This document shows, piece after piece, positions 20,752-35,365 of a stretch of 45,432 bases of DNA. This stretch comes from Chromatiaceae bacterium (lineage in GTDB: Bacteria > Pseudomonadota > Gammaproteobacteria > Chromatiales > Chromatiaceae), in contig JACDZG010000054.1 of the NCBI GenBank assembly GCA_013426805.1, forward strand, positions 1 through 45,432. The letters run 5' to 3'. Under the pieces are notes generated by a model. That model saw only the letters and a list, made by a program, of their open reading frames with translations, had not been told where the DNA came from and ran no database searches. The number at the start of each line of letters is the position of its first letter. The first letter of the stretch is position 1. The position numbers and the translations under genes are program-made.

Positions 20752-22200
20752 CTAATCGCCTCCGGCGTTCCTTCGCAGCCGACGCACCGAGGTGACAAGC
20801 GCCCGCAGGGGGGCCGTTATCCGCCAGGAGGTGGAAGCCAGGGTGTCTGAAAGCCTTGTTTCTGCATTCGCCAGGGCCGTTGCAAACCGCGCTTCGGCGC
20901 GTTCCAGTTCTTGCGAGAGCATGCGGTTGCGCGCTACCGCATCAGCCAAGTGCATCGGCGGGCCACGGCTCTGGATCAACGCATCGATCGGCGCATGCAG
21001 TTTCTCATACTGTTGTGCTCGCTCCGCAATCTTTGAACAGAGGATGTCGCGGTTGTGGTAGATGGCCTCCAGTTCACCGAAATAGCCTCCCTTCAGGGCT
21101 TCGGCAGTGTATTCCTCGATCGCCTTCTTGGCCCGTTGTCCAAGGGCTTTTCGAAGTGCCGCGTCTTCCGTCAGTTTTTTCATCCAGGCGGCGGCGGTCG
21201 GAAGCTTCGGTTCGGCCCAGTCGGCCGGCACGCCGCTCAGCATCTGCTCGTAAGCGCCTGCGCTGCCTTCCACCGGCACGAGGTCGTAATCCACTAGGCA
21301 GGCGTTGCAATGATTCATGTACGCCATCGTCCCAGACCAGGCGGTTGCAACGACCGGCTTCCCCAGTCCCATTGCCTCCATCGGGACCAGGCCGAGACCT
21401 TCCGCCCGGTGCAGCGAGACCACCACATCGACCGATGCCAGCAGGCTGAGCACATCGGCGTAAGGGTAATCGTCCGTCAAGACCAAGACCTGATCAGACC
21501 CGTCTGCGCGCTCCCGCAAGCGCGTCAGTGAAGGATGCTCCACTCCGTCCAGCACGGCATTATTGGCCTTGACCACCAGGAGCGCGTGAGGGTGACCGGC
21601 GAGAGCATCCAGGAACGCGGTGACCGTGCCCTCGGGATTCTTACGAATGGGATCGCTATTCGGCTCGTACGCGGTGAGAAAAACGATCTTGTCCGCGGGG
21701 AGGCGGAAGCGCGCGCGGTCGGCCCGCACAGTGTCCGGAACGAAGACCGGCTGCGGCCCGTGTAGCACGAAGGTGCCGGACAGGCTGAAATCGAGCGTCG
21801 CGCGGATGAAGGGTGAGCCGGCGACAATCACGTCGAAAAATTCGAAGATACGTCTCCACCCTGGGGGCAGCACCGACAACTCCCACATCGGCAGGGCAAC
21901 ATTGATCCGCGACGGGTCAAGCACGAGCCGCTCCAAGATCAACAGCTGCTGGTGGAGACTCGGGGCCGGTAACACGAACAGGTTGATACGGTAGGGAAGC
22001 CCGTTCGGCCGCTCGACACTGAGTGCTTCGAGTGAGAGGTCGTGCCTGCCCCGCCCCAAGCCGGGATCCACATCCAGCACCGCAACGGGGTAGCCCAGGC
22101 GAACCAAGGTCCGTACGACATTCCTGGCCAGCACGCCCAGGCCGAGGTTACCCGTGACGTGGCCGATGACGTTGAAGCCGGGGTGGTCCACCTCAGGCAC
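20752..22200 (-). CDS. GT4 glycosyltransferase with C-terminal coiled coil
   Basis: A 482-residue enzyme starting at a GTG (22200) that overlaps the rmd stop; upstream sequence open in this frame belongs to rmd. FNVIGHVTGNLGLGVLARNVV begins the acceptor domain. VFLTAYEPNSDPIRKNPEG, TDDYPYADVLSLLASVDVVV and HRAEGLGLVPMEAMGLGKP give the donor domain with an intact EX7E. The last ~70 residues form a heptad-rich helix (RNRMLSQELERAEARFATAL, ETRLSDTLAS) ending in STSWRITAPLRALVTSVRR. The same terminal motif type ends the coiled coil of the sulfotransferase at 28675-30684. As the enzyme next to Gmd/Rmd it may be a D-rhamnosyl- or mannosyltransferase. Confidence 0.8.
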   Translation of the reverse strand: MPEVDHPGFNVIGHVTGNLGLGVLARNVVRTLVRLGYPVAVLDVDPGLGRGRHDLSLEALSVERPNGLPYRINLFVLPAPSLHQQLLILERLVLDPSRINVALPMWELSVLPPGWRRIFEFFDVIVAGSPFIRATLDFSLSGTFVLHGPQPVFVPDTVRADRARFRLPADKIVFLTAYEPNSDPIRKNPEGTVTAFLDALAGHPHALLVVKANNAVLDGVEHPSLTRLRERADGSDQVLVLTDDYPYADVLSLLASVDVVVSLHRAEGLGLVPMEAMGLGKPVVATAWSGTMAYMNHCNACLVDYDLVPVEGSAGAYEQMLSGVPADWAEPKLPTAAAWMKKLTEDAALRKALGQRAKKAIEEYTAEALKGGYFGELEAIYHNRDILCSKIAERAQQYEKLHAPIDALIQSRGPPMHLADAVARNRMLSQELERAEARFATALANAETRLSDTLASTSWRITAPLRALVTSVRRLRRNAGGD

Positions 22201-23083
22201 TGTACATCCACCGCAGTGTCGCTTCGAGCGGAATGGCGGCAAGCGGGCCGACGGCCCGCAGCAGTTTCTGGTTTGATCCAACCAGTCGCTTGACCTCGTT
22301 GGCGCGGACGAACGTCGGATTGACTTGGGCCTGGATCTCATAGCCCGCGATATCCGCCATCATCCGCAGCACGTCCGTCAGGGTATAGGCGGCACCGGAG
22401 CAGACGTTGAACAGCTCCCCTGCGGGCGCCGCCTCCAGCAGTCGCCGATACGCGACCGCCACCGTGCGTACGTCCGAGAAGTCGCGGGCCACGTCGATGT
22501 TGCCGAGTTCGATCACCGGTTTGCGCGCCCGAAAATGCGCGACGATCTTCGGCAGCAAGAAGTGGGGCGCCTGGCCCACCCCCGTATAGTTGAACGGTCG
22601 GGTGATGACGATCGGCAGGCGATCCATCCACAGGCGCGCGAGATATTCCATCGCGAGCTTGCTCACGGCATAGTCGTTTGCAGGGGCCGGCGGCACCGAC
22701 TCGTCGATCACCTCCACCGGCGCATTGCCGTATATATTGGCGCTGCTGGCCAGAAGCACCGAGCGCGGGGGCGCCTCCAGTGGGGCCAAGGCTTCCAGCA
22801 GGTGACGGGTACCGACCAGGTTGACCCGATAGATCGCCTCGGCGTCGCCGCAGGCGACGAAGGAAATCGCCGCGAGATGCGCGACGACCTCGGGTCGCAC
22901 CTCCGCAACCACCGCGGCCAGTCCATCGCGATCACCAAGATCGACCATGTGGATGTCCGGACCCGCCGACTCGCCGTGGTGCCCCGTGCCGAACACGCGG
23001 TAACCCGCCGACTGCAGCTCGGGTGCGAGATAGCGGCCGGTGAAGCTGTTGATACCGGTGATCAGGGCGCGGCGCTCTCTCAT
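22193..23083 (-). CDS. rmd: GDP-4-dehydro-6-deoxy-D-mannose reductase
   Basis: A 296-residue extended SDR. ALITGINSFTGRYLAPEL gives the Rmd-type NAD(P) loop (TGxxxFTGxxL). SSANIYG and the YxxxK in NDYAVSKLAMEYLARLW form the active site. RPFNYTGVGQAPHFLLPKIV is the substrate region shared by Rmd and GDP-talose reductases. It reduces the Gmd product to GDP-D-rhamnose (GDP-6-deoxy-D-talose is the alternative). The ATG at 23083 fits the family; a longer frame upstream is not supported. Its TGA overlaps the GTG of the following GT4. It probably shares a transcript with gmd. Confidence 0.85.
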   Translation of the reverse strand: MRERRALITGINSFTGRYLAPELQSAGYRVFGTGHHGESAGPDIHMVDLGDRDGLAAVVAEVRPEVVAHLAAISFVACGDAEAIYRVNLVGTRHLLEALAPLEAPPRSVLLASSANIYGNAPVEVIDESVPPAPANDYAVSKLAMEYLARLWMDRLPIVITRPFNYTGVGQAPHFLLPKIVAHFRARKPVIELGNIDVARDFSDVRTVAVAYRRLLEAAPAGELFNVCSGAAYTLTDVLRMMADIAGYEIQAQVNPTFVRANEVKRLVGSNQKLLRAVGPLAAIPLEATLRWMYSA

Positions 23084-23285
23084 GTGAGTGCCTGCTGGTC
23101 GACGCCGAGCCCGCGCAGCAAAATGGCCCTTTTCCGCGCCAAGCGCCATGTCGGTAAGCAGTCTGCCAGGGCCGCGGGATCATGCGCGAGCGCGATCACA
23201 GCAGCCTCCGCCGTCTCGCGGGCGCGGACGGCGATCGGGCTGTCGCCTCCTGGATCACCTGAACGGAGTTGCTTGACAGACGCAT
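23084..23285 (-). pseudogene. Small frameshifted reading frame between gmd and rmd
   Basis: Seven bases after the gmd stop, with GAGGAGG upstream, an ATG at 23285 opens MRLSSNSVQVIQEATARSPS and stops after 29 codons. From about 23250 another frame is open to an exact TGA/ATG overlap with rmd: RETAEAAVIALAHDPAALAD, then WRLARKRAILLRGLGVD. Joining the two needs one frameshift near 23245 and would give about 66 residues. The good ribosome site and precise 3' overlap suggest a former small gene or the two ends of a deleted one. The family is not recognised. Confidence 0.4.
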
Positions 23286-23295
23286 CGCGTCCTCC

Positions 23296-24360
<1,065 letters not shown>

Positions 24361-24388: not shown

Positions 24389-24886
24389 TTACCCAATAGG
24401 TCTCGCTTTAGGCGAGCTAACTCGAAACCAATCGTTTTGAAACTTGCTTCGCAAGTCTCGTCCAAGGGAATATTGCGGCTCTCGCAACGTCACTTGTATC
24501 CCAGCGCCGCTGTAGTACGACGGGAAGGCCTTACCGGTTTTGTACAACCTCTTTACCTCACTCAGTCTGTCCTGTGCGATCTGAATCATATCACCGGACG
24601 GCTCTACTGAGTCAACGTCATGCCCTAATTTGATGAGAATCTCAGTAACCCAGCCTGGTCCGCTACCAATCTCGAGGATACGCGACCGTTCCTTGAGTTG
24701 GATGACTTCAATAAGGTTTAGGACCTGGTACATCTCATAAAAAAAGATCGAATGCCCACTATGAGTAAACGGCATGCTCAAGAGCCAACTTCTGCCGTCG
24801 TCGGTCAAATTGGCAACATAGGACTCAGCTCCCTCAATCCAATTCCGTGAATCTTGAAATCCCCCATCCAAAAATCGCCTGTTCAT
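24389..24886 (-). CDS. SAM-dependent methyltransferase, C-terminally truncated
   Basis: A 165-residue protein. SRILEIGSGPGWVTEILIKLGH is motif I of class I methyltransferases, followed by VDSVEPSGDMIQIAQDRL as motif II with the ribose-binding acidic residue. After about residue 130 the fold's remaining strands are missing and the chain ends in an unconserved tail (KFQNDWFRVSSPKARPIG), so it lacks nearly half of the usual domain. It starts 9 bases after the WbdA-like gene. Once perhaps a sugar-tailoring or capping methyltransferase, it is probably inactive now. Composition is AT-richer than gmd. Confidence 0.6.
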   Translation of the reverse strand: MNRRFLDGGFQDSRNWIEGAESYVANLTDDGRSWLLSMPFTHSGHSIFFYEMYQVLNLIEVIQLKERSRILEIGSGPGWVTEILIKLGHDVDSVEPSGDMIQIAQDRLSEVKRLYKTGKAFPSYYSGAGIQVTLREPQYSLGRDLRSKFQNDWFRVSSPKARPIG

Positions 24887-24895
24887 GCATCAACC

Positions 24896-27800
24896 CTATT
24901 CTGTGACAGAAGAAACATCGTGCGGTCCCAAAACTCTCGTGACAAGAGTCGCTGCGCTTTCCTTCCACGTTAGCCGAGGAATGTTAGTTGATAAGGGCAC
25001 ACAAGAGCGTGCCTGAAGCGCCAGCCACTGCCGCACTGCTCTGCAGATGACTTCCGGGCTCTTGTCATCGGCAAAGTAGTAAGCATGCTTTCCCGCCACT
25101 TCCCGGAACACAGGAATATCCCGCGCGATGATAGGTAACTTGTGCTGCGCAGCTTCGATAAGCGGAAGACCAAAGCCCTCTCCGTAGGAAGCGGCTATCA
25201 AGCAGCTGCTCGAAGCGTAGACCTTGCCGAGGTATTCATCGCTGATTCCTTCCAGCCAGAAAAGGCGCTTGTTGAGTGCCGGATGATTTCGCAAACGATC
25301 TAAGGTTTCGGGAATATCGCGCCGTTTGTCGCTCGGCAGATCTTTCCAGCCTTCCTTACCGACAATCACGAGATTGACATCCGCCCCTTCATCCCAGATA
25401 TTCGAGAACGCAGCGATCACTTGCAGATAGCCCTTGCGCGGCTCGATTGAACCTACCATAAGGAAGCTGGGGCGGGCTCGCAGTTCTCCCAGCCTCTGCG
25501 CAGCGTCAGCGGAAAAGCCATGGGTCGGGGCAGAATTGTCAACATCAGCGCCAATGTGGAACCAGTCGATCTTATATGGCCGCCGCCTCTCCACGTTGAA
25601 AAAAATGTTTTTGCTGCGCCAATCAATATATTCATCAGCAACGGATCTGGAAATACAAACTGCCCCATCAAACGCCGAAATCACTTTCAACCACTCAGTG
25701 TGTGCAGTACTGCCGCCAGGCGGAAACACTTCAGGCATCGATATCGGTAATAAATCAAAAACTACTGCATGCAGCTCTACGCCTCGGCCGCGAAGGACCT
25801 GGTATAAGCCGCCGCGGCTTGCCTCAATGATTGCGCCGCCTGACAAGTCCAGGGTGAAAAGGAGGTCGCCGTTATCTACCTCGACCATTTCATCCTCAAT
25901 GCTTTGGCCGTGACATCCCAGCAATCCCAGCGTGTATTGCATGGCGTGCCGATAGTGCCACACACCGCCGACGTCCGAGAGATACACGGGTTCGACACGG
26001 AAGCCTTCAGGCGGCGACTCAAGCAGGGCGAGGCATAGGGCACGTGCAACTCGCTCGATGCCGGTCTTGAGGTCGTGGCGGGACGTCGCAGTGATATCCA
26101 ACAATAGGCGCCTCGCTGACGCCTTCAACGGAAAAGTCAATGCCATCGTTCGAGCGAGTTCCCGAAGTTCAGTGTCATTCTGCGGCAAAATCCTTTGCGC
26201 GCTCAGGGCTTGTATCAAAGCCGGCGGTGAGGTGACGGCCCTTTGATTGAAACTTTCGATCGCTTCCGCATAGTGCCGGGCACATTCCGCCGGTGCGTGG
26301 CGCGTCTCTACGATTGCGCGCGCCTGCTTACCCAGTGCTTTTCGCATTATTGGGTCACGCCACAAAGTCTCCAAAAGCGTGACTAAATCACTATTCTCAA
26401 AGTCGTTGGAAAGCATGCACACCGCGTCCGTGTCAAGCTCAGCCATTGAGCCGTTAGCGTTTACGATAAGCGGCAGCGCATGGTTCATGCAATCTAATAC
26501 TGCGGCAGATGTTTCACCGCGTGATTGCGTACGGAGCTGTACCGCAACGTCCGCCGCTGCAAGATATAGTTGGTACAATTCGGGAGTGACGAAGCCAGTG
26601 ATACGAATACGATCTCCAAAGCCACTCTTTCGAATGAGTTCAGCCAACTCCGTGGTATACTCACCGCCGTGGCTTTCGCCTACAAAAAGCAACTTGCAGG
26701 CAGTATCGGACGCTAGGCTACTGCCCAACCAGGCTTCAAGCAAGCGGTGGTTGAGCTTGGTCGGACCAAGAAAGCCGAAACTGGAAGTAATGAAATCCTG
26801 TTCAGTAAAGCCGAGGAGATCTCGAGCCTTCGCCTTTGTTGTGATGGTCGCAGGAGAACGGACTGAGGGTATAACGACCCAATTTGCTTCAGCGCCTTGA
26901 CCATACCAACGCTGCGCGAGTTTAACGGAATACTCGGAATGTACGATCACACCTTGGGCAAGTTGCAGAGCCTGCAAATTGGCGGGGTAAGCAAATATCG
27001 CGGCATTGGGGTCCTGGAGACGGTCACGGACAGCTGCGTACCCGTGTGAGTAAAACAGCGCCTGCGTCCATGGATGTACTGCGACTCGAGAACACTCAGA
27101 CCAAGCCAACAGGTGACTGAGAAAGAAATCGTGCATCACCAACGTGCCAGGGATGTCGCGGATCAAAGAGAGCATGTCCTGATGGAACGGCGAGTTGCCC
27201 ATCTGATATAGGACCCGGTCATAGTTGGCGGCATTAGAGCGCAGCCAGGCTACATCACGCACCGAACAATGCGCCTGAACCCAGGGTTCATCCACGCAGT
27301 CTTGACTGACGATCACGTCGATGTCGTAGTGCTTTCCCAAGGCGGGCAATAGTTTGGCGCTGTAATCGGCAATGCCAGTCCGTTCCGGTGGCAGCGGTGA
27401 GACAAATGCGAGCCGAGGGCGAGGGTCAGACTGACGCAATTCCTCTGGGGTCTCTGATCGAGTAACTCGCTCCCACGCGGAGATCGACCGTTTTGCTGTC
27501 TCATCCCAAGAAAAACGCCTGGCTTGTTGTGCGCTATTCTCGCGCAGCCGAGCAACGAAGCCGTCATCGATCAGGGCTTGGCGCATTTTGGCGGCCATGG
27601 CGACGGTGTCGAGCGGATCGAACAGCGCTTCTGTAAGACCGATGACTTCTGGCAAGCTAGAAGAGTTCGAGCCGATGACTGGTGCGCCGCAGGCCATCGC
27701 CTCTAACGCTGGCAGGGCGAAACCTTCTTGCCAAGACGGGAACACACAGACCCGGCACAAATTGTAAATCTGGACCAGTTCCTTGTCGCTGACGTGGCCG

Positions 27801-28675
27801 GTGAAGATCAGTTCGTCCGGGCCAAGACCGGCGGAATGGGTATCATTCTTTAGGCGATCGGCGTAGCCGGTTGGAGTGTTGCCGACGAATAGCAATTGAT
27901 AAGTGCGGCGCAGTTCCGACGGCAGAGTAGCGTAAGCCTCGATCAGCCGAGACAAGTTCTTGTGCTCGTCATCGCCGCGTGGGTAGAGTACGAACGGACG
28001 GGTGAGGCCGAACTTCCGACGAATGCTGTCTTGCATTGCATCGCTAAGTGGCAGTGGGGCGAAATGCTCGTCTATGGCTGTCGATATGTTGCAAATCCGC
28101 TCGCCTAGAACCGGCAGATGTTGCTGCACTTTGTGTGTCGTGAAGTCAGAAATCCCCAGAACAGCCGTCGCATTCTTGAGCCAATTAATCTTGCCAAAGT
28201 AATAGTCCGAAAAGTACGGACGCGGCTTAAGGTAATGATCCGGATTTTGCAACGGATTTAGGTCGTGCAGTGTCACACTTACCGGCGTATGTTTGTCAAG
28301 TCCGCTGATGCTAGTGACAGCGTCATCGACATAGCCTTCGAATAGACTGGTAATGTGTATGATATCGGGCTGTAGGCTGGCGAGAAATGCTTCACGGACA
28401 ACCTCGGCCGCCTCGCGCCGGGTGCGGTTGCCCGGCCGATCTGCCTGTACGGGTCCAGGAGCATACCAGACGCGAATATTCTCCTGAAGCAGCAGCCCGT
28501 CGAACGCCGCACGAATTGGCTCGATGCTCTCCGGAAGAAGCCCGTTCAGGGCAAGCACGATTTCCTTATTGCCCCGATTGCGAGCGATGGCTCGGGCGAA
28601 TGAAAGTGTGTAGCGGCCTATGTCCAGAAAGCGACTTTCTGACTGTGCGCCTTGCATGTCGATGACGATGCGCAT
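24896..28675 (-). CDS. Three-domain GT4 polymerising glycosyltransferase (WbdA-like)
   Basis: A 1259-residue protein made of three tandem GT-B glycosyltransferase units, about 1-405, 420-810 and 853-1250. MRIVIDMQGAQSESRFLDIG closely resembles the start of WbdA-type mannosyltransferases. The EX7E pair is intact in unit 1 (E317/E325) and unit 3 (E1166/E1174). Unit 2 has GETSAAVLDCM, with E721 but Cys at the second position. WbdA enzymes build the repeating unit of polymannan O antigens on undecaprenyl-PP at the inner membrane. The gene overlaps the sulfotransferase stop (TAATG) and sits behind wzm-wzt, as in ABC-transporter-dependent O-antigen operons. Linkages made cannot be told from sequence; mannose or D-rhamnose is the likely sugar. 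Confidence 0.85.
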   Translation of the reverse strand: MRIVIDMQGAQSESRFLDIGRYTLSFARAIARNRGNKEIVLALNGLLPESIEPIRAAFDGLLLQENIRVWYAPGPVQADRPGNRTRREAAEVVREAFLASLQPDIIHITSLFEGYVDDAVTSISGLDKHTPVSVTLHDLNPLQNPDHYLKPRPYFSDYYFGKINWLKNATAVLGISDFTTHKVQQHLPVLGERICNISTAIDEHFAPLPLSDAMQDSIRRKFGLTRPFVLYPRGDDEHKNLSRLIEAYATLPSELRRTYQLLFVGNTPTGYADRLKNDTHSAGLGPDELIFTGHVSDKELVQIYNLCRVCVFPSWQEGFALPALEAMACGAPVIGSNSSSLPEVIGLTEALFDPLDTVAMAAKMRQALIDDGFVARLRENSAQQARRFSWDETAKRSISAWERVTRSETPEELRQSDPRPRLAFVSPLPPERTGIADYSAKLLPALGKHYDIDVIVSQDCVDEPWVQAHCSVRDVAWLRSNAANYDRVLYQMGNSPFHQDMLSLIRDIPGTLVMHDFFLSHLLAWSECSRVAVHPWTQALFYSHGYAAVRDRLQDPNAAIFAYPANLQALQLAQGVIVHSEYSVKLAQRWYGQGAEANWVVIPSVRSPATITTKAKARDLLGFTEQDFITSSFGFLGPTKLNHRLLEAWLGSSLASDTACKLLFVGESHGGEYTTELAELIRKSGFGDRIRITGFVTPELYQLYLAAADVAVQLRTQSRGETSAAVLDCMNHALPLIVNANGSMAELDTDAVCMLSNDFENSDLVTLLETLWRDPIMRKALGKQARAIVETRHAPAECARHYAEAIESFNQRAVTSPPALIQALSAQRILPQNDTELRELARTMALTFPLKASARRLLLDITATSRHDLKTGIERVARALCLALLESPPEGFRVEPVYLSDVGGVWHYRHAMQYTLGLLGCHGQSIEDEMVEVDNGDLLFTLDLSGGAIIEASRGGLYQVLRGRGVELHAVVFDLLPISMPEVFPPGGSTAHTEWLKVISAFDGAVCISRSVADEYIDWRSKNIFFNVERRRPYKIDWFHIGADVDNSAPTHGFSADAAQRLGELRARPSFLMVGSIEPRKGYLQVIAAFSNIWDEGADVNLVIVGKEGWKDLPSDKRRDIPETLDRLRNHPALNKRLFWLEGISDEYLGKVYASSSCLIAASYGEGFGLPLIEAAQHKLPIIARDIPVFREVAGKHAYYFADDKSPEVICRAVRQWLALQARSCVPLSTNIPRLTWKESAATLVTRVLGPHDVSSVTE

Positions 28676-30684
28676 TAGCGTTGTACCTCGTCAATCTTAT
28701 CGATAGCAGCCCTTAGGTTCGCATAAATGTGACGAGCGTGGGGAGTCATGGTTCCTTGAATTTCTTCGTCGACTATGTGGCCGCATTGGATGTCGGGAAC
28801 TGAGTGATTCACGGTGTCCGGCGCTTCGCTGAGCAGGACACTCGTATTTAATGCCACACGTAGCAGGCGTTGGTGCAAGCCGGGAACGCGCTTTATAACC
28901 GGGCTGAGCCCGGCTCGAAGTTGCGGGCGAATGAGTACCTGCCGGATTCCGGCAGCGAGTAGGGGGCGCAGCGCCTCTTTGCCTGTTAGTATCAGGTCTG
29001 CAGCCGACAGCCGAAAAGGCGATAGATCTCGGCTGGTTAGACGCTTGACCGCGCGTAGAGGTCTGGTTACCTCCCCGGACGTGCTGTGGTTGAGAGCGAG
29101 AAGCTGCGCATGGCAATCACGTAACTGCTGGTGAACCTGTTCTAGATTCCCGTGCTGCCAGGCGATGTGAGCGTGCAGCCGCTCAATTTCCATGTCACGC
29201 GCCGTCAGAGCGGCTCGCGCTTGTGCCAACTCTGCTGTTGCCGCCTCCTTTTCCCTCTGCTGCCAGGCGGTGTGAGTTTGAAGCTGCTCAATTGCCACGT
29301 CACGCGCCGTCAGAGCCGCTCGCGCTTGTGCCAGCTTTGCGGTTGCTGCCTCCTTTTCCCCCTGCTGCCAGGCTGTGTGGGCTTGAAGCCGCGCGATCTC
29401 CGAGGTTAGCCCATCCGTTTGGCACAGCTGCGAGGTGATGTGCGCTTGAAGCCGCGTGAACTCTCCGTCCCGCGCCGCTAGGCGCGCATGCAGGCGTTCG
29501 TTCTCCGCGTTGTGCGCCGCCAAGCCAACGCGCACCTGTGCAAAGGCGTCCTTGATCTCTTCCAGGCGCTGCTGCTGATCCTCGCGCCCGTGCAGACGAA
29601 CGTTCTCGCCGTTGTGGACCAGTAACTCCCGCGCCGCGTCAGCCACTCGATCCTCGAGATGCCGCGCCACAGCGCGAGCGCGGCTAGCCTGCTCTACTAT
29701 CAAAGAAACCGCGGCGGATACCTTGTCGCGCCAACAGGAAGGCTCGTAATCCGCTCTCAGGGCTGAGACGCGGTCGAGATCTGCCTGTGACCAAGCTCCC
29801 TCCAGCAGCAATCCGTGAACCCTTTCTTCCTGATCCGAAAAAAAACGCCGATCGCTGTCGTCATAATGACCTTGCGGAATTTTGCAATCGGAAAAGTCAA
29901 GCGCGCCAATACCCATCTGTGCCAGATCGTTTAGCGTCGCGGCACGATAAGCAGGGGAATCCGTCAATCGGTCGATATTAATCAGCAACCCGGCGTTGAG
30001 CCTGCCCTCTTGGAGCGCGAGGCACCAGAGCGTGTAGAAGAGCAGATAACTTTCCGCGCTGCCGAGCGGTGCCGCCAGGAAATGATTGAACGATTGTGCG
30101 AGGTCGTCTCCGGAATACGGCTCAAAACGTATGAGTGTGCGCAAGGCAAGCAGCGCCGGGGGAGCATTCGGTGCGTTCAGAATCAGCTGATTCGCGGCAT
30201 CGAAATAAGGAGCGATTTTGTGGGACCACCACTGATCCCATGGATTCCGCCAAAGGTAAAGGTGATAGCCGCCAAGCGCGTCCCGTATTGCCCGGATACG
30301 GCCGGACGTTCGGGTTTCCTGGAAAACCGGACGCCCCGTTGACGAATCGATGAGCGCTTGCCAGTAGGCAAGTCCGATGTCACTACCTGGCGGACAGAAG
30401 TAGCCGTCGTATACCGCAAACGGCTGCAGCGCGGCTGTCCACTTTGGCCAGGCATCCAAGAGCTCCTTGAAATATGAGTCATCCATGATGGGGTGGCGGA
30501 GCGACCGGGCCTTTTCGGCATTATGATCGGCCAGCACTGTCGGATTATCGCGAGCGAAAACGGCTAGCTCATGCAAGGGCTCCTGAAAACAGCAGTAGCC
30601 GGCCGGCGAGCGCCGGAAGACGTTGAACAAATAGGTGCTGGCAGCTCGGAAGAGGGAGTGGATAAAGATCGGAGACTTGTTCAT
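28675..30684 (-). CDS. Sulfotransferase fused to a long coiled coil with 35-residue repeats
   Basis: A 669-residue protein. Residues 1-320 form a PAPS-dependent sulfotransferase: IHSLFRAASTYLFNVFRRS (8-26) is the phosphosulfate loop, and LWRNPWDQWWSH (144-155) with Arg146 and Ser154 is the 3'-phosphate site. Residues about 325-532 form a continuous heptad-rich coiled coil containing two tandem 35-residue units (433-467, 468-502) and a partial third. Then comes STSGEVTRPLR (534-544) and a basic C-terminal domain to 669. Placed between wzt and the WbdA-like polymerase, it occupies the slot of WbdD, the kinase/methyltransferase whose coiled coil measures O-antigen length. I infer a sulfate-adding chain terminator. 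Start: ATG 3 bases after the wzt stop. Confidence 0.75.
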   Translation of the reverse strand: MNKSPIFIHSLFRAASTYLFNVFRRSPAGYCCFQEPLHELAVFARDNPTVLADHNAEKARSLRHPIMDDSYFKELLDAWPKWTAALQPFAVYDGYFCPPGSDIGLAYWQALIDSSTGRPVFQETRTSGRIRAIRDALGGYHLYLWRNPWDQWWSHKIAPYFDAANQLILNAPNAPPALLALRTLIRFEPYSGDDLAQSFNHFLAAPLGSAESYLLFYTLWCLALQEGRLNAGLLINIDRLTDSPAYRAATLNDLAQMGIGALDFSDCKIPQGHYDDSDRRFFSDQEERVHGLLLEGAWSQADLDRVSALRADYEPSCWRDKVSAAVSLIVEQASRARAVARHLEDRVADAARELLVHNGENVRLHGREDQQQRLEEIKDAFAQVRVGLAAHNAENERLHARLAARDGEFTRLQAHITSQLCQTDGLTSEIARLQAHTAWQQGEKEAATAKLAQARAALTARDVAIEQLQTHTAWQQREKEAATAELAQARAALTARDMEIERLHAHIAWQHGNLEQVHQQLRDCHAQLLALNHSTSGEVTRPLRAVKRLTSRDLSPFRLSAADLILTGKEALRPLLAAGIRQVLIRPQLRAGLSPVIKRVPGLHQRLLRVALNTSVLLSEAPDTVNHSVPDIQCGHIVDEEIQGTMTPHARHIYANLRAAIDKIDEVQR

Positions 30685-30687
30685 GAC

Positions 30688-31977
30688 TCAGCACTCGGCG
30701 ACGCCCGCTTCGGAGTCGATCTCAATCGACGCCCCCATCTCGATCAACCCGAGCATGGCGGTAGAGTTGCTGCCTGACGACACCTTGAGAATAGCGGAGT
30801 CGACGCGCCGCGAAAGGAATTCGAGGCCACCATCTGCTTCGGATCGCACACCACAATTCAGGTAATAGAGGCCAGGGGCTAGGGCGTTCTTTAACGTGAA
30901 GCGCACGTTGACGGCATCGCCGGTTGCGAATTGTGATGGAAGGGTTCTAAAGCGCGTTGAATCCAACCCATACAACGCGACACCCTCGCGGGTTTTCAGC
31001 AACATCGCGAATATCGGGGCATCCACAGTATCGTTGAAAATTACACGATAGCACCACCGGAACCCCACTCCGGACTCGACCACGTTCATCCGGCGGCCTG
31101 CCAAATCCTCTATCCAGCAGGAGATGATCGCAGCGCGCCCGTTTCCGTAAGTCATCTCGCAGCTTGCGACAAGAGACGGGTCGAACCTAGCGGATTCCGC
31201 AGCGGGAACGGCGTCAAGGTCAGATGGATCGCTCTTCGGAGGACCGCCGCCACCAAACAGAAACCTTTCATAGGTATCACAAACTTGCTTTGCCGGGCCG
31301 AACTGCGCGGGTGCGTCGGCCTGGATGAACAGGGCGCGACTGCACAGCTTCTTGACGGTCTCAGTATCGTGGCTGACGAACAACAACGTGGTTCCCGTTG
31401 CCAGAAAGTCCTCAATGCGCCGGAAGCACTTGCGCTGGAAGGCTGCATCCCCGACGGCGAGGGCCTCGTCCACGATCAGCACGTCCGGCCGCTTGGCTGT
31501 CGCCACGCTGAACCCCAGCCGCATCTGCATGCCGCTGGAATAGATGCGAACCGGTTGATCGATATAGTCTCCGATCTCGGCAAAGGCCTCGATCTCGGGC
31601 ATGAGCGCCGCGATTTCGTCGACGTCAAGGCCCAGCAGCTGAGCAGCCATAAACACGTTTTGTCGCCCCGTGAAGTCGGGGTGGAAGCCCATGCCCAACT
31701 CCAGCATGGCGGCAACCCGCCCGGCGGTCTGCACGCTGCCGGTGGTGGGCTGCGTCGTCCCGGTGATGAGCTTGAGTAGCGTGCTCTTACCTGCACCGTT
31801 GATGCCGATGATGCCGACGGACTCACCGGGTTCGACGCGGAAGCTGATGTCGCGCAGCACCCAATGCAGGGTGTGCCGCGGTCCCTGGCGAGGCCTCATC
31901 CACTCGGCCAGCCGCGACCAGCGCCCGGGGTACTGTTTGTACGCCTTACCCAGACCCGTGACGGTGATGGCGCTCAT
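30688..31977 (-). CDS. wzt: O-antigen ABC transporter ATPase with C-terminal glycan-binding domain
   Basis: A 429-residue ATPase starting at the ATG at 31977, which overlaps the wzm stop (TGATG). Residues about 1-245 form the nucleotide-binding domain: GINGAGKST (Walker A), YSSGMQMRLG (signature), DVLIVDEALAVGD (Walker B) and SHD switch. Residues about 275-429 form the extra immunoglobulin-like domain that in Wzt of E. coli O9a binds the terminally modified end of the glycan. Its presence predicts that only capped chains are exported, which fits a dedicated terminator directly downstream. With Wzm it exports finished undecaprenyl-PP-linked chains. Confidence 0.9.
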   Translation of the reverse strand: MSAITVTGLGKAYKQYPGRWSRLAEWMRPRQGPRHTLHWVLRDISFRVEPGESVGIIGINGAGKSTLLKLITGTTQPTTGSVQTAGRVAAMLELGMGFHPDFTGRQNVFMAAQLLGLDVDEIAALMPEIEAFAEIGDYIDQPVRIYSSGMQMRLGFSVATAKRPDVLIVDEALAVGDAAFQRKCFRRIEDFLATGTTLLFVSHDTETVKKLCSRALFIQADAPAQFGPAKQVCDTYERFLFGGGGPPKSDPSDLDAVPAAESARFDPSLVASCEMTYGNGRAAIISCWIEDLAGRRMNVVESGVGFRWCYRVIFNDTVDAPIFAMLLKTREGVALYGLDSTRFRTLPSQFATGDAVNVRFTLKNALAPGLYYLNCGVRSEADGGLEFLSRRVDSAILKVSSGSNSTAMLGLIEMGASIEIDSEAGVAEC

Positions 31978-32774
31978 CAGAGTTCGTCCACCATTTCGCC
32001 GGCACGCTTGCGGAAGAGGCGCAGACCCAGCAGGCACAAGAGCGATGAAACAATCGTCGGTATCAGCAGGCTGGTCCAGTCAGGCCATTGGCCGGCCACG
32101 AAGATGCTCTGGTTGGCGGCGATGAGGGGCGCCAGCGGATTCAAGATGAAAAGAATGCCACGAATCTGCTCGGGCAGTATCGTCGGCGGATAGACGATCG
32201 GCGTGAACCAGAACCAAAAGGTCAGTGCGACGCCAAACATCTGGCTCACGTCGCGAAAAAAGACATTGAGCACGCCGAGAGACATACCGAGGCCGATCGA
32301 AAAGGCGACCTGCACGGTCAGCACCGGGATAGCGGCCAGCGCCACCCAGCCGGGCCAGTTGCCGCTTAGGCCTAGGAATATCATGAACAGGCCGAAAACG
32401 ATCGAGAAGTTGAGCCCGGCGCTCAGCACCACGATGAGCGGGAGGGTGAGCCGTGGGAAACTCATTTTCTTCATCAGGTTGGCTTGCTCGATGAAGATAT
32501 TCTGGGCTCGCACGGCGATCTCGCTGAACAGTCCCCAGGTCAGTACGCCGGTGATGAGGTAGATGGTGTAGCCGAAGGTCGACTCCACGCCCGGTAGTCG
32601 GGACTTCATCAGTTGCGAGAACACCACCGTGTAGACCACGATCATCGCCAGCGGATTGATCACGTTCCACACCGCACCGAGCATCGAGTTGCGATACTTC
32701 AACTGGAACTCGCGCTTGATGCTGCCGGCGACGAAGCCGCGGTAGGCCCAGAGGGCGTCGACCAGGGTAGTCAT
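31977..32774 (-). CDS. wzm: O-antigen ABC transporter permease
   Basis: A 265-residue permease of the ABC-2 type with six membrane helices. REFQLKYRNSMLGAVWNVINPLAMI is the amphipathic interface helix and first span. MKKMSFPRLTLPLIVVLSA and VNVFFRD-like VLNVFFRDVSQMF are conserved Wzm/TagG motifs. It forms the membrane channel for the polysaccharide with Wzt. It is the first gene of the minus-strand operon that runs wzm-wzt-sulfotransferase-WbdA-like and probably on to the methyltransferase and gmd. The upstream 450 bp are AT-rich and non-coding and likely hold the promoter. Confidence 0.9.
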   Translation of the reverse strand: MTTLVDALWAYRGFVAGSIKREFQLKYRNSMLGAVWNVINPLAMIVVYTVVFSQLMKSRLPGVESTFGYTIYLITGVLTWGLFSEIAVRAQNIFIEQANLMKKMSFPRLTLPLIVVLSAGLNFSIVFGLFMIFLGLSGNWPGWVALAAIPVLTVQVAFSIGLGMSLGVLNVFFRDVSQMFGVALTFWFWFTPIVYPPTILPEQIRGILFILNPLAPLIAANQSIFVAGQWPDWTSLLIPTIVSSLLCLLGLRLFRKRAGEMVDEL

Positions 32775-33636: not shown

Positions 33637-35184
33637 TTAGTCCCCAACGGATGCGATCACCGCCTCCGCAATGAGGTCCTGCGCGGACTCGCTCAGGTCC
33701 GCATGCATCGGCAGGCTGATCACACTGGCGGCGAGTCGGGCCGCAACGGGCGTGCAGTCGGGGCAACAGAGATGCTGATACGCGGGCTGCACATTGAGCG
33801 GGATCGGGTAGTGCACCGCGCTCGGAATGCCGCGTGACTGAAGCGCATCGACCACGCCGTCCCGGTTGGGAACCTGCAGGGTGTATTGTGCAAAGACGCA
33901 GGTGCGGTCCGGGCGAATGACCGGGGTCGCGATCCGCGGGGCGACAGCGAACAACTCCGAATAGCGCCGACCGATGGCGATGCGCCGCTCGATTTCCCAG
34001 TCGAAGCGGTCGAGTTTTGCCAGGAGCACCGCGCATTGCAGGGTGTCCATGCGCCCGCCGACACCGACGCGGGTGTGGACATAGCGCCGCGCTTGACCAT
34101 GCACGCGCAATTCGCGCATGGTCTGGGCCAGCTCCCCGTCATTGGTGAAGATGGCGCCGCCGTCGCCGTAACAGCCCAGCGGCTTGGATGGAAAGAAACT
34201 GGTGCAGCCGATGGTCGAGAGGTTGCCGCTCTTGACTCCCCGGTAGCTGGCGCCGAAACTCTGGGCCGCGTCCTCGATGACCGGCAGTCCGTAGGCCGCG
34301 GCGATGGTGTTGATGGCGTCCATATCCGCCGGCTGGCCGTAGAGCGCGACCGGAATGATCGCCTTGGTGGTCGAATTGATCGCGGCCTCGAGCTGATCGA
34401 CGTTGATGTTGCAGGTGTCCGGTTCGACATCGACAAAGACCGGCCGCGCGCCCACCAGACAGATGACTTCCGCGGTCGCCACGAAGGTGAAGGGCGTGGT
34501 GATGACCTCGTCACCGGGGCCGACGCCCAAGGCCATCAGGCTGATCAGGAGCGCCTCGGTTCCGGAGGCGACACTGATGCAGTGCGCGGCGCCGGTGTAG
34601 GCTTGCAGCCGCTGTTCCAATTCCTCCATCTCCGGCCCCAGGATATAGCGGCCGTGATGCAGCACCCGGTGGATCTGCGCCTCCAATTGGGGGCGAATGG
34701 CTGCTTGCTGAGCGGGCAGATCAATGAAGTCGATCCGCCGCAGGGCCGGCGGGAGCGCCAGATAGCCGGCGGGACTGATCGCTTGTTGCGCATGAGCGGC
34801 CACGAAAATTTCATCGCGCGTCAGAATCTTGACCGCGCCGCGGGGCAGGCGATCCAAGGCGTTCAACAAACGTTCACGGGCCGGATCGGGCGCGTCGAAG
34901 CGCGCGAAATCCCCGCCCAGGGCGGCGAGCCATTGCTTATCCTGGGTGAAGCACTCGAGCCGTTGCCTGGCAAGCCGCGTTTGCGCTTCAGCGACACGGT
35001 GCTCGGCCGTGTCCTGCAAGGCGCGCAGGACCCCATCCTCGTAGCCCTGGGCCGCGCCGGCATAGAGCCAGACGGTACCGCCCTCATCCAGACAACGGGT
35101 GATCGCTGCCGCTGCGTCGGGACTTGGCGCGGCCTCCGGGACACAGGCGGCGATGACGCAATCGGTATCGAGCAAAAGATCCAT
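33637..35184 (-). CDS. PIN domain fused to DegT/WbpE-type sugar aminotransferase
   Basis: A 515-residue fusion. Residues about 1-140 look like a PIN nuclease fold: MDLLLDTDCVIAACVP with D6 and D8, acidic residues in the middle, and KILTRDEIFVAA with D124 at the usual end position. Residues about 150-515 are a complete PLP-dependent DegT/DnrJ/EryC1 enzyme: FIDLPAQQAAIRPQLEAQI and YILGPEMEELE at its start are typical of WbpE-like UDP-3-keto-sugar aminotransferases, DAAQSFGASYRG binds PLP, and K334 in FFPSKPLGCYGDGG is the Schiff-base lysine. The start at 35184 has GAGGAAT upstream; a 26-residue extension is not supported. The fusion is unusual. A frameshift-free junction and one good start argue that it is real. 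Confidence 0.8.
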   Translation of the reverse strand: MDLLLDTDCVIAACVPEAAPSPDAAAAITRCLDEGGTVWLYAGAAQGYEDGVLRALQDTAEHRVAEAQTRLARQRLECFTQDKQWLAALGGDFARFDAPDPARERLLNALDRLPRGAVKILTRDEIFVAAHAQQAISPAGYLALPPALRRIDFIDLPAQQAAIRPQLEAQIHRVLHHGRYILGPEMEELEQRLQAYTGAAHCISVASGTEALLISLMALGVGPGDEVITTPFTFVATAEVICLVGARPVFVDVEPDTCNINVDQLEAAINSTTKAIIPVALYGQPADMDAINTIAAAYGLPVIEDAAQSFGASYRGVKSGNLSTIGCTSFFPSKPLGCYGDGGAIFTNDGELAQTMRELRVHGQARRYVHTRVGVGGRMDTLQCAVLLAKLDRFDWEIERRIAIGRRYSELFAVAPRIATPVIRPDRTCVFAQYTLQVPNRDGVVDALQSRGIPSAVHYPIPLNVQPAYQHLCCPDCTPVAARLAASVISLPMHADLSESAQDLIAEAVIASVGD

Positions 35185-35222
35185 GGTTGGGAATTCCTCG
35201 TGATGTGGGTCGGAGTGCGCGG

Positions 35223-35365
35223 CGGCGATCATCGTTCCGGCCAGTGCCCCCGCCTCGTGCACCGGAGGTCGAGGCTGTAGCCGGACCAGGGCGGCGCTGA
35301 CGCGATGTCGACCGGCTACAGCCTCGACCTCCGATCTTACTTGCGGCCGAAGCGATGATTCCGGC
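35223..35365. repeat. Composite palindromic repeat
   Basis: The outer arms GGCGATCATCGTTCCGGCC (around 35223-35241) and an inverted, decayed partner near 35343-35360 belong to the ATCATCGTTCCGGCC family. Between them lies a perfect 22-bp inverted repeat, 35263-35284 with 35312-35333, containing GTAGCCGG/CCGGCTAC, around a 27-base loop. It separates the DUF302 gene from the PIN-aminotransferase gene and could end transcription. Confidence 0.75.

Follow-up and report, generated by a model that had tools for sequence, protein, structure and literature searches.

A putative sulfotransferase chain terminator with a WbdD-like tail in an ABC-transporter glycan operon of a Chromatiaceae bacterium

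The 45,432-nt contig JACDZG010000054.1 of a Chromatiaceae bacterium (assembly GCA_013426805.1) carries an operon for a glycan exported by an ATP-binding cassette (ABC) transporter, in the order wzm, wzt, X and a WbdA-like polymerase gene. This whole contig, C319 in a genome of 7.6 Mb, is referred to below as the window. The question raised by the locus is what protein X does to the growing chain, since it occupies the place that the chain terminator WbdD holds in E. coli O9a. The original prediction, made from the letters alone, proposed that X joins a 3'-phosphoadenosine-5'-phosphosulfate (PAPS) sulfotransferase to a coiled coil, sets chain length with the coil and caps the chain with sulfate. 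Our analysis makes it likely that X is a sulfate-capping terminator of the WbdD type, with its coil as the ruler and the capped end read by the C-terminal domain of Wzt (Wzt_C). The parts of the operon that carry this argument are as follows.

31977..32774, minus strand: wzm, ABC transporter permease, 265 aa (PF01061)
30688..31977, minus strand: wzt, encoding an ATPase with a C-terminal sugar-binding domain, 429 aa if the ATG overlapping the stop of wzm is the start (PF00005, PF14524)
30760..31152, minus strand: Wzt_C sugar-binding domain (PF14524; best match of its model, 2R5O)
30808..30810, minus strand: Arg codon in wzt (first R of FLSRRVD), at the position of Trp362 of Aquifex Wzt by alignments
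28675..30684, minus strand: X, 669 aa, with sulfotransferase, coil and WbdD-type tail
29725..30684, minus strand: X sulfotransferase domain, residues 1-320, with the 5'-phosphosulfate-binding motif (5'-PSB) at residues 12-18 and the 3'-phosphate-binding motif (3'-PB) at residues 145-154
29089..29715, minus strand: long predicted helix or coil of X, residues 324-532, with a break at 362-366 (structure model)
29149..29392, minus strand: in-frame tandem repeat within the coil, period 105 nt = 35 aa = 5 heptads
28678..29085, minus strand: X tail, residues 534-669, from a degenerate S.SWR.T.PLR motif (STSGEVTRPLR) to MTPHARHIYANL near the C-terminus
24896..28675, minus strand: WbdA-like polymerase with three glycosyltransferase family 4 (GT4) modules, 1259 aa

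The genes are tightly packed. One-base start/stop overlaps join wzm to wzt (TGATG) and X to the polymerase gene (TAATG), and the gap between wzt and X is 3 nt. The polymerase is 48% identical over 422 residues to a WbdA module of the O8 family, and 42% and 36% identical to two O9 WbdA modules. For comparison we used O8 and O9 loci from two environmental plasmid records, found via a search for similar DNA. Their order is manC-manB-wzm-wzt-WbdD-WbdA, and X lies in the corresponding terminator slot between wzt and the polymerase gene. The WbdD genes of these records are annotated merely as methyltransferase-domain proteins, and the O9 one matches Pkinase plus a methyltransferase. Wzt carries the extra C-terminal domain, with a PF14524 match of 81.2 bits (E 9e-23; cut-off 30.4 bits), and its model has the fold of solved Wzt domains (E 1e-10 to 2R5O). 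The operon and the two-domain Wzt were therefore as the original prediction had described them.

X has no sulfotransferase match in Pfam or NCBIfam, so the label given to residues 1-320 needed proof. The relatives L010 and L002 (29% and 27% identity in alignment A1) both belong to Sulfotransfer_3 (PF13469). R13, S16, R146 and S154 are invariant across 18 aligned proteins of the X type (hereafter type A); we take these to be residues of the 5'-PSB and 3'-PB. In an AlphaFold2 model built from the 18 sequences, 29 of the 32 ten-residue blocks in residues 1-320 had a predicted local distance difference test score (pLDDT) of at least 85. The first 14 Foldseek matches of the model in the PDB were all sulfotransferases (best E 6e-3, prob 0.99; none at E ≤0.001), headed by the human and tick tyrosylprotein sulfotransferases. 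Ala15 apart, the fold and the 5'-PSB and 3'-PB residues of a PAPS sulfotransferase are thus present, and by sequence and modelled fold the N-terminal domain of X is very probably a sulfotransferase. A phmmer search of X against PDB sequences returned a liprin coil alone (E 0.3), and an IMG/VR scan gave no relative of X. There was no kinase or methyltransferase Pfam match in X; therefore X is not a WbdD, although it looks as if it works like one.

It is highly improbable that this domain is instead a related P-loop kinase that phosphorylates the chain end. Adenylate, guanylate and shikimate kinases do appear among the weaker Foldseek matches, and the window Wzt shares an Arg pocket with the O9 system, whose cap is a methyl-phosphate. 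The first 14 fold matches and the Sulfotransfer_3 relatives argue for the sulfotransferase. So do three observations described below: a PF03567 protein shares the Wzt_C clade, a PF00685 protein adjoins a Wzt that scores with that clade, and cysC occurs in two sulfotransferase loci (L008 and L072).

The tail supplied a strong clue that had not figured in the original prediction, as did the Arg in Wzt where the Aquifex pocket has Trp. A tail profile (A3) built solely from 13 sulfotransferase tails, the window copy among them, matched the WbdD tails of O8 (57.8 bits) and O9 (30.9 bits) over nearly its full length. Searched against 1101 open reading frames (ORFs) and the comparison proteins, it gave 27 rows, 25 of them distinct. 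These were 13 slot proteins with a Pfam methyltransferase, 2 WbdD, 4 sulfotransferase proteins of the GMHRSGTSA type and 6 others. Many full-length type-A tails finish in a motif like LSPRAR.IY..LK. Judged from this profile similarity, the X tail is homologous to the WbdD tail, part of the C-terminal region that is reported to recruit WbdA to the membrane (PMC3482155; PMC11231755).

The coil of about 200 residues held up in part. The model gives X a near-continuous helix (324-361 and 367-532), followed by a tail that is also helical, and the linker is 203 residues long. An extended coil after the cap enzyme is thus seen through a modelled helix, partly of low confidence, together with the five-heptad repeat; a significant heptad periodicity was not recovered in the window copy, as detailed below. 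Among the relatives, periodicity near 3.5 was strong in L011, L016, L024 and L036 (0-1 of 500 shuffles as high) and missing in L008 (313/500) and L014 (252/500). We ran Tandem Repeats Finder (TRF) on 55 genes (32 type-A, L101, ten other sulfotransferases and twelve methyltransferase proteins), counting arrays of period at least 15 nt and score at least 60. Arrays occurred in 14 of the 55, and the best period was a whole number of heptads in 11 of these, where chance would give 1 in 7 of in-frame periods (binomial 1e-7). The exceptions were L013 (18 nt, outside the coil), L061 (129 nt) and L122 (93 nt), and L029 has a secondary 54-nt array. Such periods indicate a coiled coil that stays in register as its length changes.

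Whole-heptad growth alone does not prove a ruler, since it follows from keeping any coiled coil in register. X might therefore cap with sulfate while its coil is a scaffold that measures nothing, a doubtful but serious alternative that also draws on L008, where the linker has only 48 residues and no significant periodicity. Set against it, linker length varies five-fold between two conserved ends, and a published study describes the coil as an established ruler in the E. coli O9 serogroup and K. pneumoniae O12 (PMC11231755). We consider that the coil of X probably works as a ruler. As a separate observation, 153 nt (51 aa) of the coil region are perfectly duplicated in tandem in the O9-family WbdD on an Enterobacter plasmid (L126:5582-7861), a natural length variant that is not a whole number of heptads.

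Whole-genome searches showed X to be rare: 3 of the 93 near genomes and 4 of the 369 class genomes gave a match, the window's own included in each figure. A pattern scan of an 84,980-species collection gave 30 confirmed loci (L011-L040), a biased sample because just two peptide patterns, WRNPWDQ and MNK[SQ]PIFI, were used. With the window and L008 these form the set of 32 type-A loci; L101 was found later and stands outside it. A two-domain Wzt lies directly upstream in 15 of the 32 (window, L008, L011-L014, L016, L021-L024, L026, L027, L029 and L036), which span Pseudomonadota, Thermodesulfobacteriota, Nitrospirota and Myxococcota and include the culturable strains Acidovorax delafieldii DSM 64 (L013) and Vreelandella utahensis DSM 3051 (L023). 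All 15 have the sulfotransferase, then a coil-like linker and an S.SWR.T.PLR-type motif, degenerate in the window and with its final residues changed in L012; the S.SWR pattern was loosened partway to take in L024 and L032. The fusion beside wzm and wzt therefore recurs in other genomes, with linkers from 48 (L008) to 248 residues (L024). L008, a class genome with the same operon and 53% identity in the sulfotransferase domain, has the order cysC-manB-manC-wzm-wzt-sulfotransferase-polymerase, in which cysC is an adenosine 5'-phosphosulfate (APS) kinase (PF01583, E 1e-67).

The other type-A loci comprise five beside capsule-type transporter genes, two cut at the contig start (L020 and L025), two with coil and tail and no wzt within the stretch covered (L028 and L032), four plain and four distant and plain. 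The plain ones (L030, L031, L033 and L034) have no coil-tail part and no wzm or wzt in the stretch covered, which was 1.2 kb upstream in L034; the distant ones (L037-L040) are 26-30% identical. L030, L031 and L033 are short relatives (371-375 aa) in metagenome-assembled genomes; downstream of each, a similar-looking tetratricopeptide repeat (TPR)-type protein is encoded on the opposite strand, and the stretch covered has no Wzt. Among the capsule-type loci, the L015 sulfotransferase forms a fusion with an FkbM methyltransferase, the coil-like stretch of L018 is very long, and in L019 coil and tail are encoded by a separate gene adjoining the sulfotransferase gene.

The terminator slot was also approached from the transporter side. 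Wzt_C is present in 89 of the 369 class genomes. Sixty Wzt_C neighbourhoods were read, and wzt was recognised by script in 56 of them (not in L070, L075, L082 and L086; L070 and L075 were taken up later, outside the 56). A slot protein was one with the S.SWR motif among the four genes after wzt. In 12 of the 56 (L041, L042, L044, L046, L050, L052, L059, L060, L063, L064, L066 and L083) this protein has an N-terminal methyltransferase, of several Pfam families. In L061 it has a Sulfotransfer_3 domain with no blastp similarity to type A at 1e-4, and in L051 a glycosyltransferase only. In L072 a single protein, encoded by the second gene past wzt, unites Sulfotransfer_2 (PF03567) with a glycosyltransferase and with what looks by eye like a coil, and L070 has a Sulfotransfer_3 domain and a coil-like stretch directly after wzt. 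On these comparisons of sequence, the methyltransferase is exchanged for a sulfotransferase in the same slot. Two counter-examples have sulfotransferases near a Wzt whose C-terminal domain falls outside the sulfotransferase clades described next: in L096 the gene lies two genes after wzt and no coil was seen, and in L073 it is on the other strand. The L072 locus also holds a cysC-like gene. Adjacency of cysC was tried as a general mark of sulfotransferase loci and rejected, as it was labelled in just two, L008 by Pfam and L072 by blastp.

We then compared how closely the two halves of Wzt follow the cap enzyme. Trees were built for the C-terminal parts and the ATPase halves of 68 Wzt proteins, 18 of them labelled as sulfotransferase (ST) rows; the long-branch rows L071, L079, L080 and L100 were removed before the final trees and are included in the first tree. 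L072 was labelled 'other' in that tree and relabelled ST after PF03567 was found; it was recognised solely because its Wzt_C fell in the ST clade. L070 was added later. In the Wzt_C tree the ST label needs 2 changes (bootstrap range 2-2; shuffled mean 16.1; 0/500 as low). Fifteen ST rows form one clade (99/95), including L061, L070 and L072 with sulfotransferases unlike type A, and L012, L026 and L029 form a separate clade (100/99). The ATPase tree also clusters the ST rows, less tightly, with 7 changes (bootstrap 7-8; shuffled mean 16.0; 0/500 as low). Each half is incompatible with the other's grouping: the 15-row Wzt_C clade is rejected by the ATPase data (approximately unbiased (AU) test, p-AU 2e-4) and the 25-row ATPase clade by the C-domain data (p-AU 7e-74), in tests that used a group named after the C-domain tree had been seen. 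By these trees, Wzt_C is tied to the sulfotransferase more tightly than the ATPase half of the same protein is.

This association was put to use as a prediction. A profile of 14 clade Wzt_C domains (A6), searched in 398 phylum genomes, gave 39 matches. Before their genes were read, we predicted a sulfotransferase in nine new loci scoring at least 90 bits, and none in eleven of the 27 matches at about 70 bits or less. A sulfotransferase was found in 7 of the 8 decidable high scorers, in 5 of them within two genes after wzt; G552 was undecidable because the contig ends. In G469 a type-A sulfotransferase adjoins wzt. G601, G514 and G463 have the GMHRSGTSA type (as the second gene in G463), and G775 has a Sulfotransfer_1 (PF00685) protein with a C-terminal stretch matching coil-type models. 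In G602 a gene of the same GMHRSGTSA type is found some 3 kb upstream, and in G486 a divergent one about 2 kb upstream. The slot held a sulfotransferase in none of the eleven low scorers, and one of them (the second locus of G775) has one 1.8 kb away on the other strand. For the low scorers, reading covered some 12 kb of mainly downstream sequence and was followed by a genome-wide check with A7, PF00685 and PF13469, not with the type-A profile; the high scorers with an empty slot (G684, G602 and G486) were read further upstream, and the low scorers were not. A second A6 match in the window genome (C75), outside the named list, also has a sulfotransferase.

The C75 locus is unusual in that the Wzt sugar-binding domain is a free-standing gene of 164 aa (L075:3012-3506). 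It adjoins a gene for an 828-aa sulfotransferase protein with the tail motif (L075:3514-6000). A blastp search across 18 kb of L125 (C75) gave no wzm or Wzt ATPase half. The free-standing domain may act in trans.

The Wzt pocket offers a possible explanation of how the transporter would tell caps apart. In Aquifex aeolicus Wzt, which binds 3-O-methyl-mannose, the methyl cap lies against Leu300, Thr346, Ala348 and Trp362, with Trp362 stacking on it and His350 bonding the sugar (PMC9445017). The window Wzt_C is a homologous cap-recognition domain; unlike the Aquifex pocket, it has Asn, Gly, Arg and Arg at positions 346, 348, 350 and 362. HMMER aligned the 346-350 stretch; Trp362 lies beyond the end of the printed Aquifex fragment and was matched through equal spacing and the MAFFT alignment. 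The residue at the Trp362 position is basic in 26 of 26 ST loci (15 Arg and 3 Lys in the 18 tree rows, Arg in all 8 new loci) and in 2 of 16 methyltransferase rows (12 Trp, 2 Tyr and 2 Arg, the last in L058 and L060; Fisher 2e-9, with rows that are not phylogenetically independent). The eleven low scorers have nine Trp and two Arg (L110 and L111). In the same motif, the O8-family Wzt (methyl cap) has Trp and the O9-family Wzt (methyl-phosphate cap) has Arg.

An O9-like DRRY pocket motif with no sulfotransferase seen in the slot occurs in L058, L060, L062, L065, L067, L068, L074, L110 and L111, and these loci may mark methyl-phosphate caps. In L058, L060, L110 and L111, similar-looking N-terminal methyltransferases adjoin wzt. 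A search for kinase motifs in L058, L060, L062, L067, L110 and L111, which might have explained the Arg pocket, gave nothing usable, and PDB sequence searches with L060 and L058 had no WbdD among their matches.

These results suggest the following mechanism. X would be a WbdD-type terminator whose N-terminal cap enzyme, a PAPS-dependent sulfotransferase, replaces the methyltransferase or methyltransferase-kinase. Its tail would anchor the WbdA-like polymerase to the membrane, with the coil keeping the sulfotransferase at a fixed distance from the polymerase. The glycan, probably a mannose/rhamnose polymer, would receive sulfate at its non-reducing end only when it has grown far enough to reach the sulfotransferase. 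The sugar-binding domain of Wzt, through its Arg pocket, would recognise the sulfated end and admit the chain to Wzm/Wzt. Synteny with O8 and O9, the WbdD tail homology, the slot swap and the co-segregation of Wzt_C with the sulfotransferase, all computed directly, are the reasons for proposing a capping terminator, and they support the sulfate-capping role that the original prediction had put forward. We hold with good confidence that the sulfotransferase acts at the chain end.

Several findings weigh against this interpretation. Five of the 32 type-A loci (L015, L017, L018, L019 and L035) adjoin capsule-type transporter genes. In L015, L018 and L019 the neighbour is a 217-220-aa ATPase with an ABC_tran match and no Wzt_C, so the same sulfotransferase domain does occur beside a short capsule-type ATPase that lacks the extra domain, in part the circumstance that the original prediction had named as adverse. 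L017 and L035 have a capsule-type permease alongside (judged by eye in L035). L101 lacks an S.SWR tail despite its coil-like stretch, and G684, a high scorer, has no sulfotransferase in the stretch read; its wzt (L105:9298-10638; L121) looks like an orphan transporter half, with no glycan genes in that stretch. The ATPase halves cluster the ST rows too, and type-A operons are co-inherited, so that the twelve rows they contribute to the main Wzt_C clade cannot count as independent. A basic pocket residue also occurs in loci with no sulfotransferase (O9, L058, L060, L110, L111 and others) and therefore fits anionic caps generally, not sulfate alone. In the window itself, X has Ala15 where Gly is near-invariant in the 5'-PSB of the 18-protein alignment, its tail motif is degenerate (STSGEVTRPLR against S.SWR.T.PLR), the hydrophobic heptad periodicity of its coil is not significant (125 of 500 shuffles as high), and pLDDT falls below 50 at 424-448.

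The defects of the window copy raise a further possibility, that the family is a sulfating terminator and this member is decaying or inactive. Ala15, the degenerate S.SWR motif and the weak heptad signal fit such decay, as does a truncated methyltransferase nearby. We consider it quite unlikely, since the 669-aa frame is intact, the close gene junctions are kept, the residues invariant in the 18-protein alignment, including those of the 3'-PB, are present, and the whole-heptad repeat is clean. The genome also has two APS kinase matches.

Alternatively, the sulfotransferase could decorate internal sugars of the repeat unit, with coil and tail just tethering it to the polymerase and the end capped otherwise or not at all. 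A Cobetia capsule cluster has a sulfotransferase and a sulfated repeat unit (PMC11766843), and some type-A relatives sit beside capsule-type transporter genes without a Wzt_C domain. The sulfotransferases of L096 and L073, near wzt and with no coil seen, and that of the second G775 locus, on the other strand, could be read in the same way. For X this is unlikely. It lies in the terminator slot with a WbdD-type tail, and Wzt_C, a binder of capped ends in the systems studied (PMC9445017), tracks the sulfotransferase beyond its own ATPase half. Moreover, the window has no other intact candidate cap enzyme between wzm and gmd. The genes beyond the polymerase are as follows.

24389..24886, minus strand: truncated methyltransferase-like ORF, 165 aa, a fragment as the original prediction had stated
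23296..24345, minus strand: gmd, GDP-mannose 4,6-dehydratase (TIGR01472 above cut-off)
22193..23149, minus strand: NAD-dependent epimerase/reductase (Pfam match), possibly supplying GDP-D-rhamnose together with gmd
20752..22341, minus strand: glycosyltransferase ending in STSWRITAPLRAL, the same tail motif as X

The proposed sulfate-capping terminator is closest in plan to E. coli WbdD. It shares with the O9/O9a protein the slot between wzt and wbdA, an N-terminal cap enzyme, a coil and a homologous tail, and the window Wzt has an Arg in its motif like the O9 system (LDRRYDS, 2R5O aligned). In contrast to the kinase-methyltransferase of O9/O9a, which makes a methyl-phosphate cap, the cap enzyme of X is a putative sulfotransferase. 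The O8-family WbdD likewise shares slot, coil and tail, but is a methyltransferase that makes a methyl cap, and its Wzt has Trp in the motif (YEWRDLA, by eye). X also shares a cap enzyme on a coil, serving ABC-exported glycans, with the K. pneumoniae terminators O7 ORF6, O4 ORF7 and O12 WbbB, in which the cap enzyme lies at the far end of a coiled-coil ruler (PMC11231755). Their caps are methyl-phosphate (O7) and Kdo (3-deoxy-D-manno-oct-2-ulosonic acid; O4) (PMC11231755), and Kdo for O12 WbbB from the title of structure 5HNO. The term 'sulf' does not occur in the main text of PMC11231755, and we found no description of a sulfotransferase terminator in the open-access full-text literature, as far as its texts were available to us. 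The nearest precedent found is ORF19 of the Aeromonas salmonicida wbsalmo locus, a sulfotransferase-domain gene between wzt and wbbB. Unlike X, it is 216 aa long, the paper does not mention a coiled coil, and its authors left the function open; they also report no sulfate in the O-antigen structure, a further point against sulfate capping (PMC4483657).

The balance tips slightly towards a broader interpretation, in which sulfate capping is a widespread, unrecognised branch of ABC-exported glycans. At least four sulfotransferase sequence types would serve it, three placed in the Wzt_C tree and the fourth by profile score, and one Wzt_C clade would read them, with a single pocket position as the code. 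Among these types, type A and the GMHRSGTSA type have both a coil and a WbdD-like tail. If the code holds, with an aromatic residue for methyl and Arg or Lys for an anionic cap (sulfate or methyl-phosphate), cap chemistry could be predicted from wzt, giving a testable rule for reading it off the transporter sequence. Methyl, methyl-phosphate and Kdo are the end groups for which we found descriptions among coiled-coil terminators, and sulfate would add a chemistry. The ruler scaffold would then accept exchangeable cap enzymes, and could provide a handle for producing length-defined, end-sulfated glycans.

Elsewhere in the window, a DegT aminotransferase ORF (33637-35262) has an extra N-terminal stretch of about 190 residues, which has no Pfam match at 0.1 and looks PIN-like by eye.

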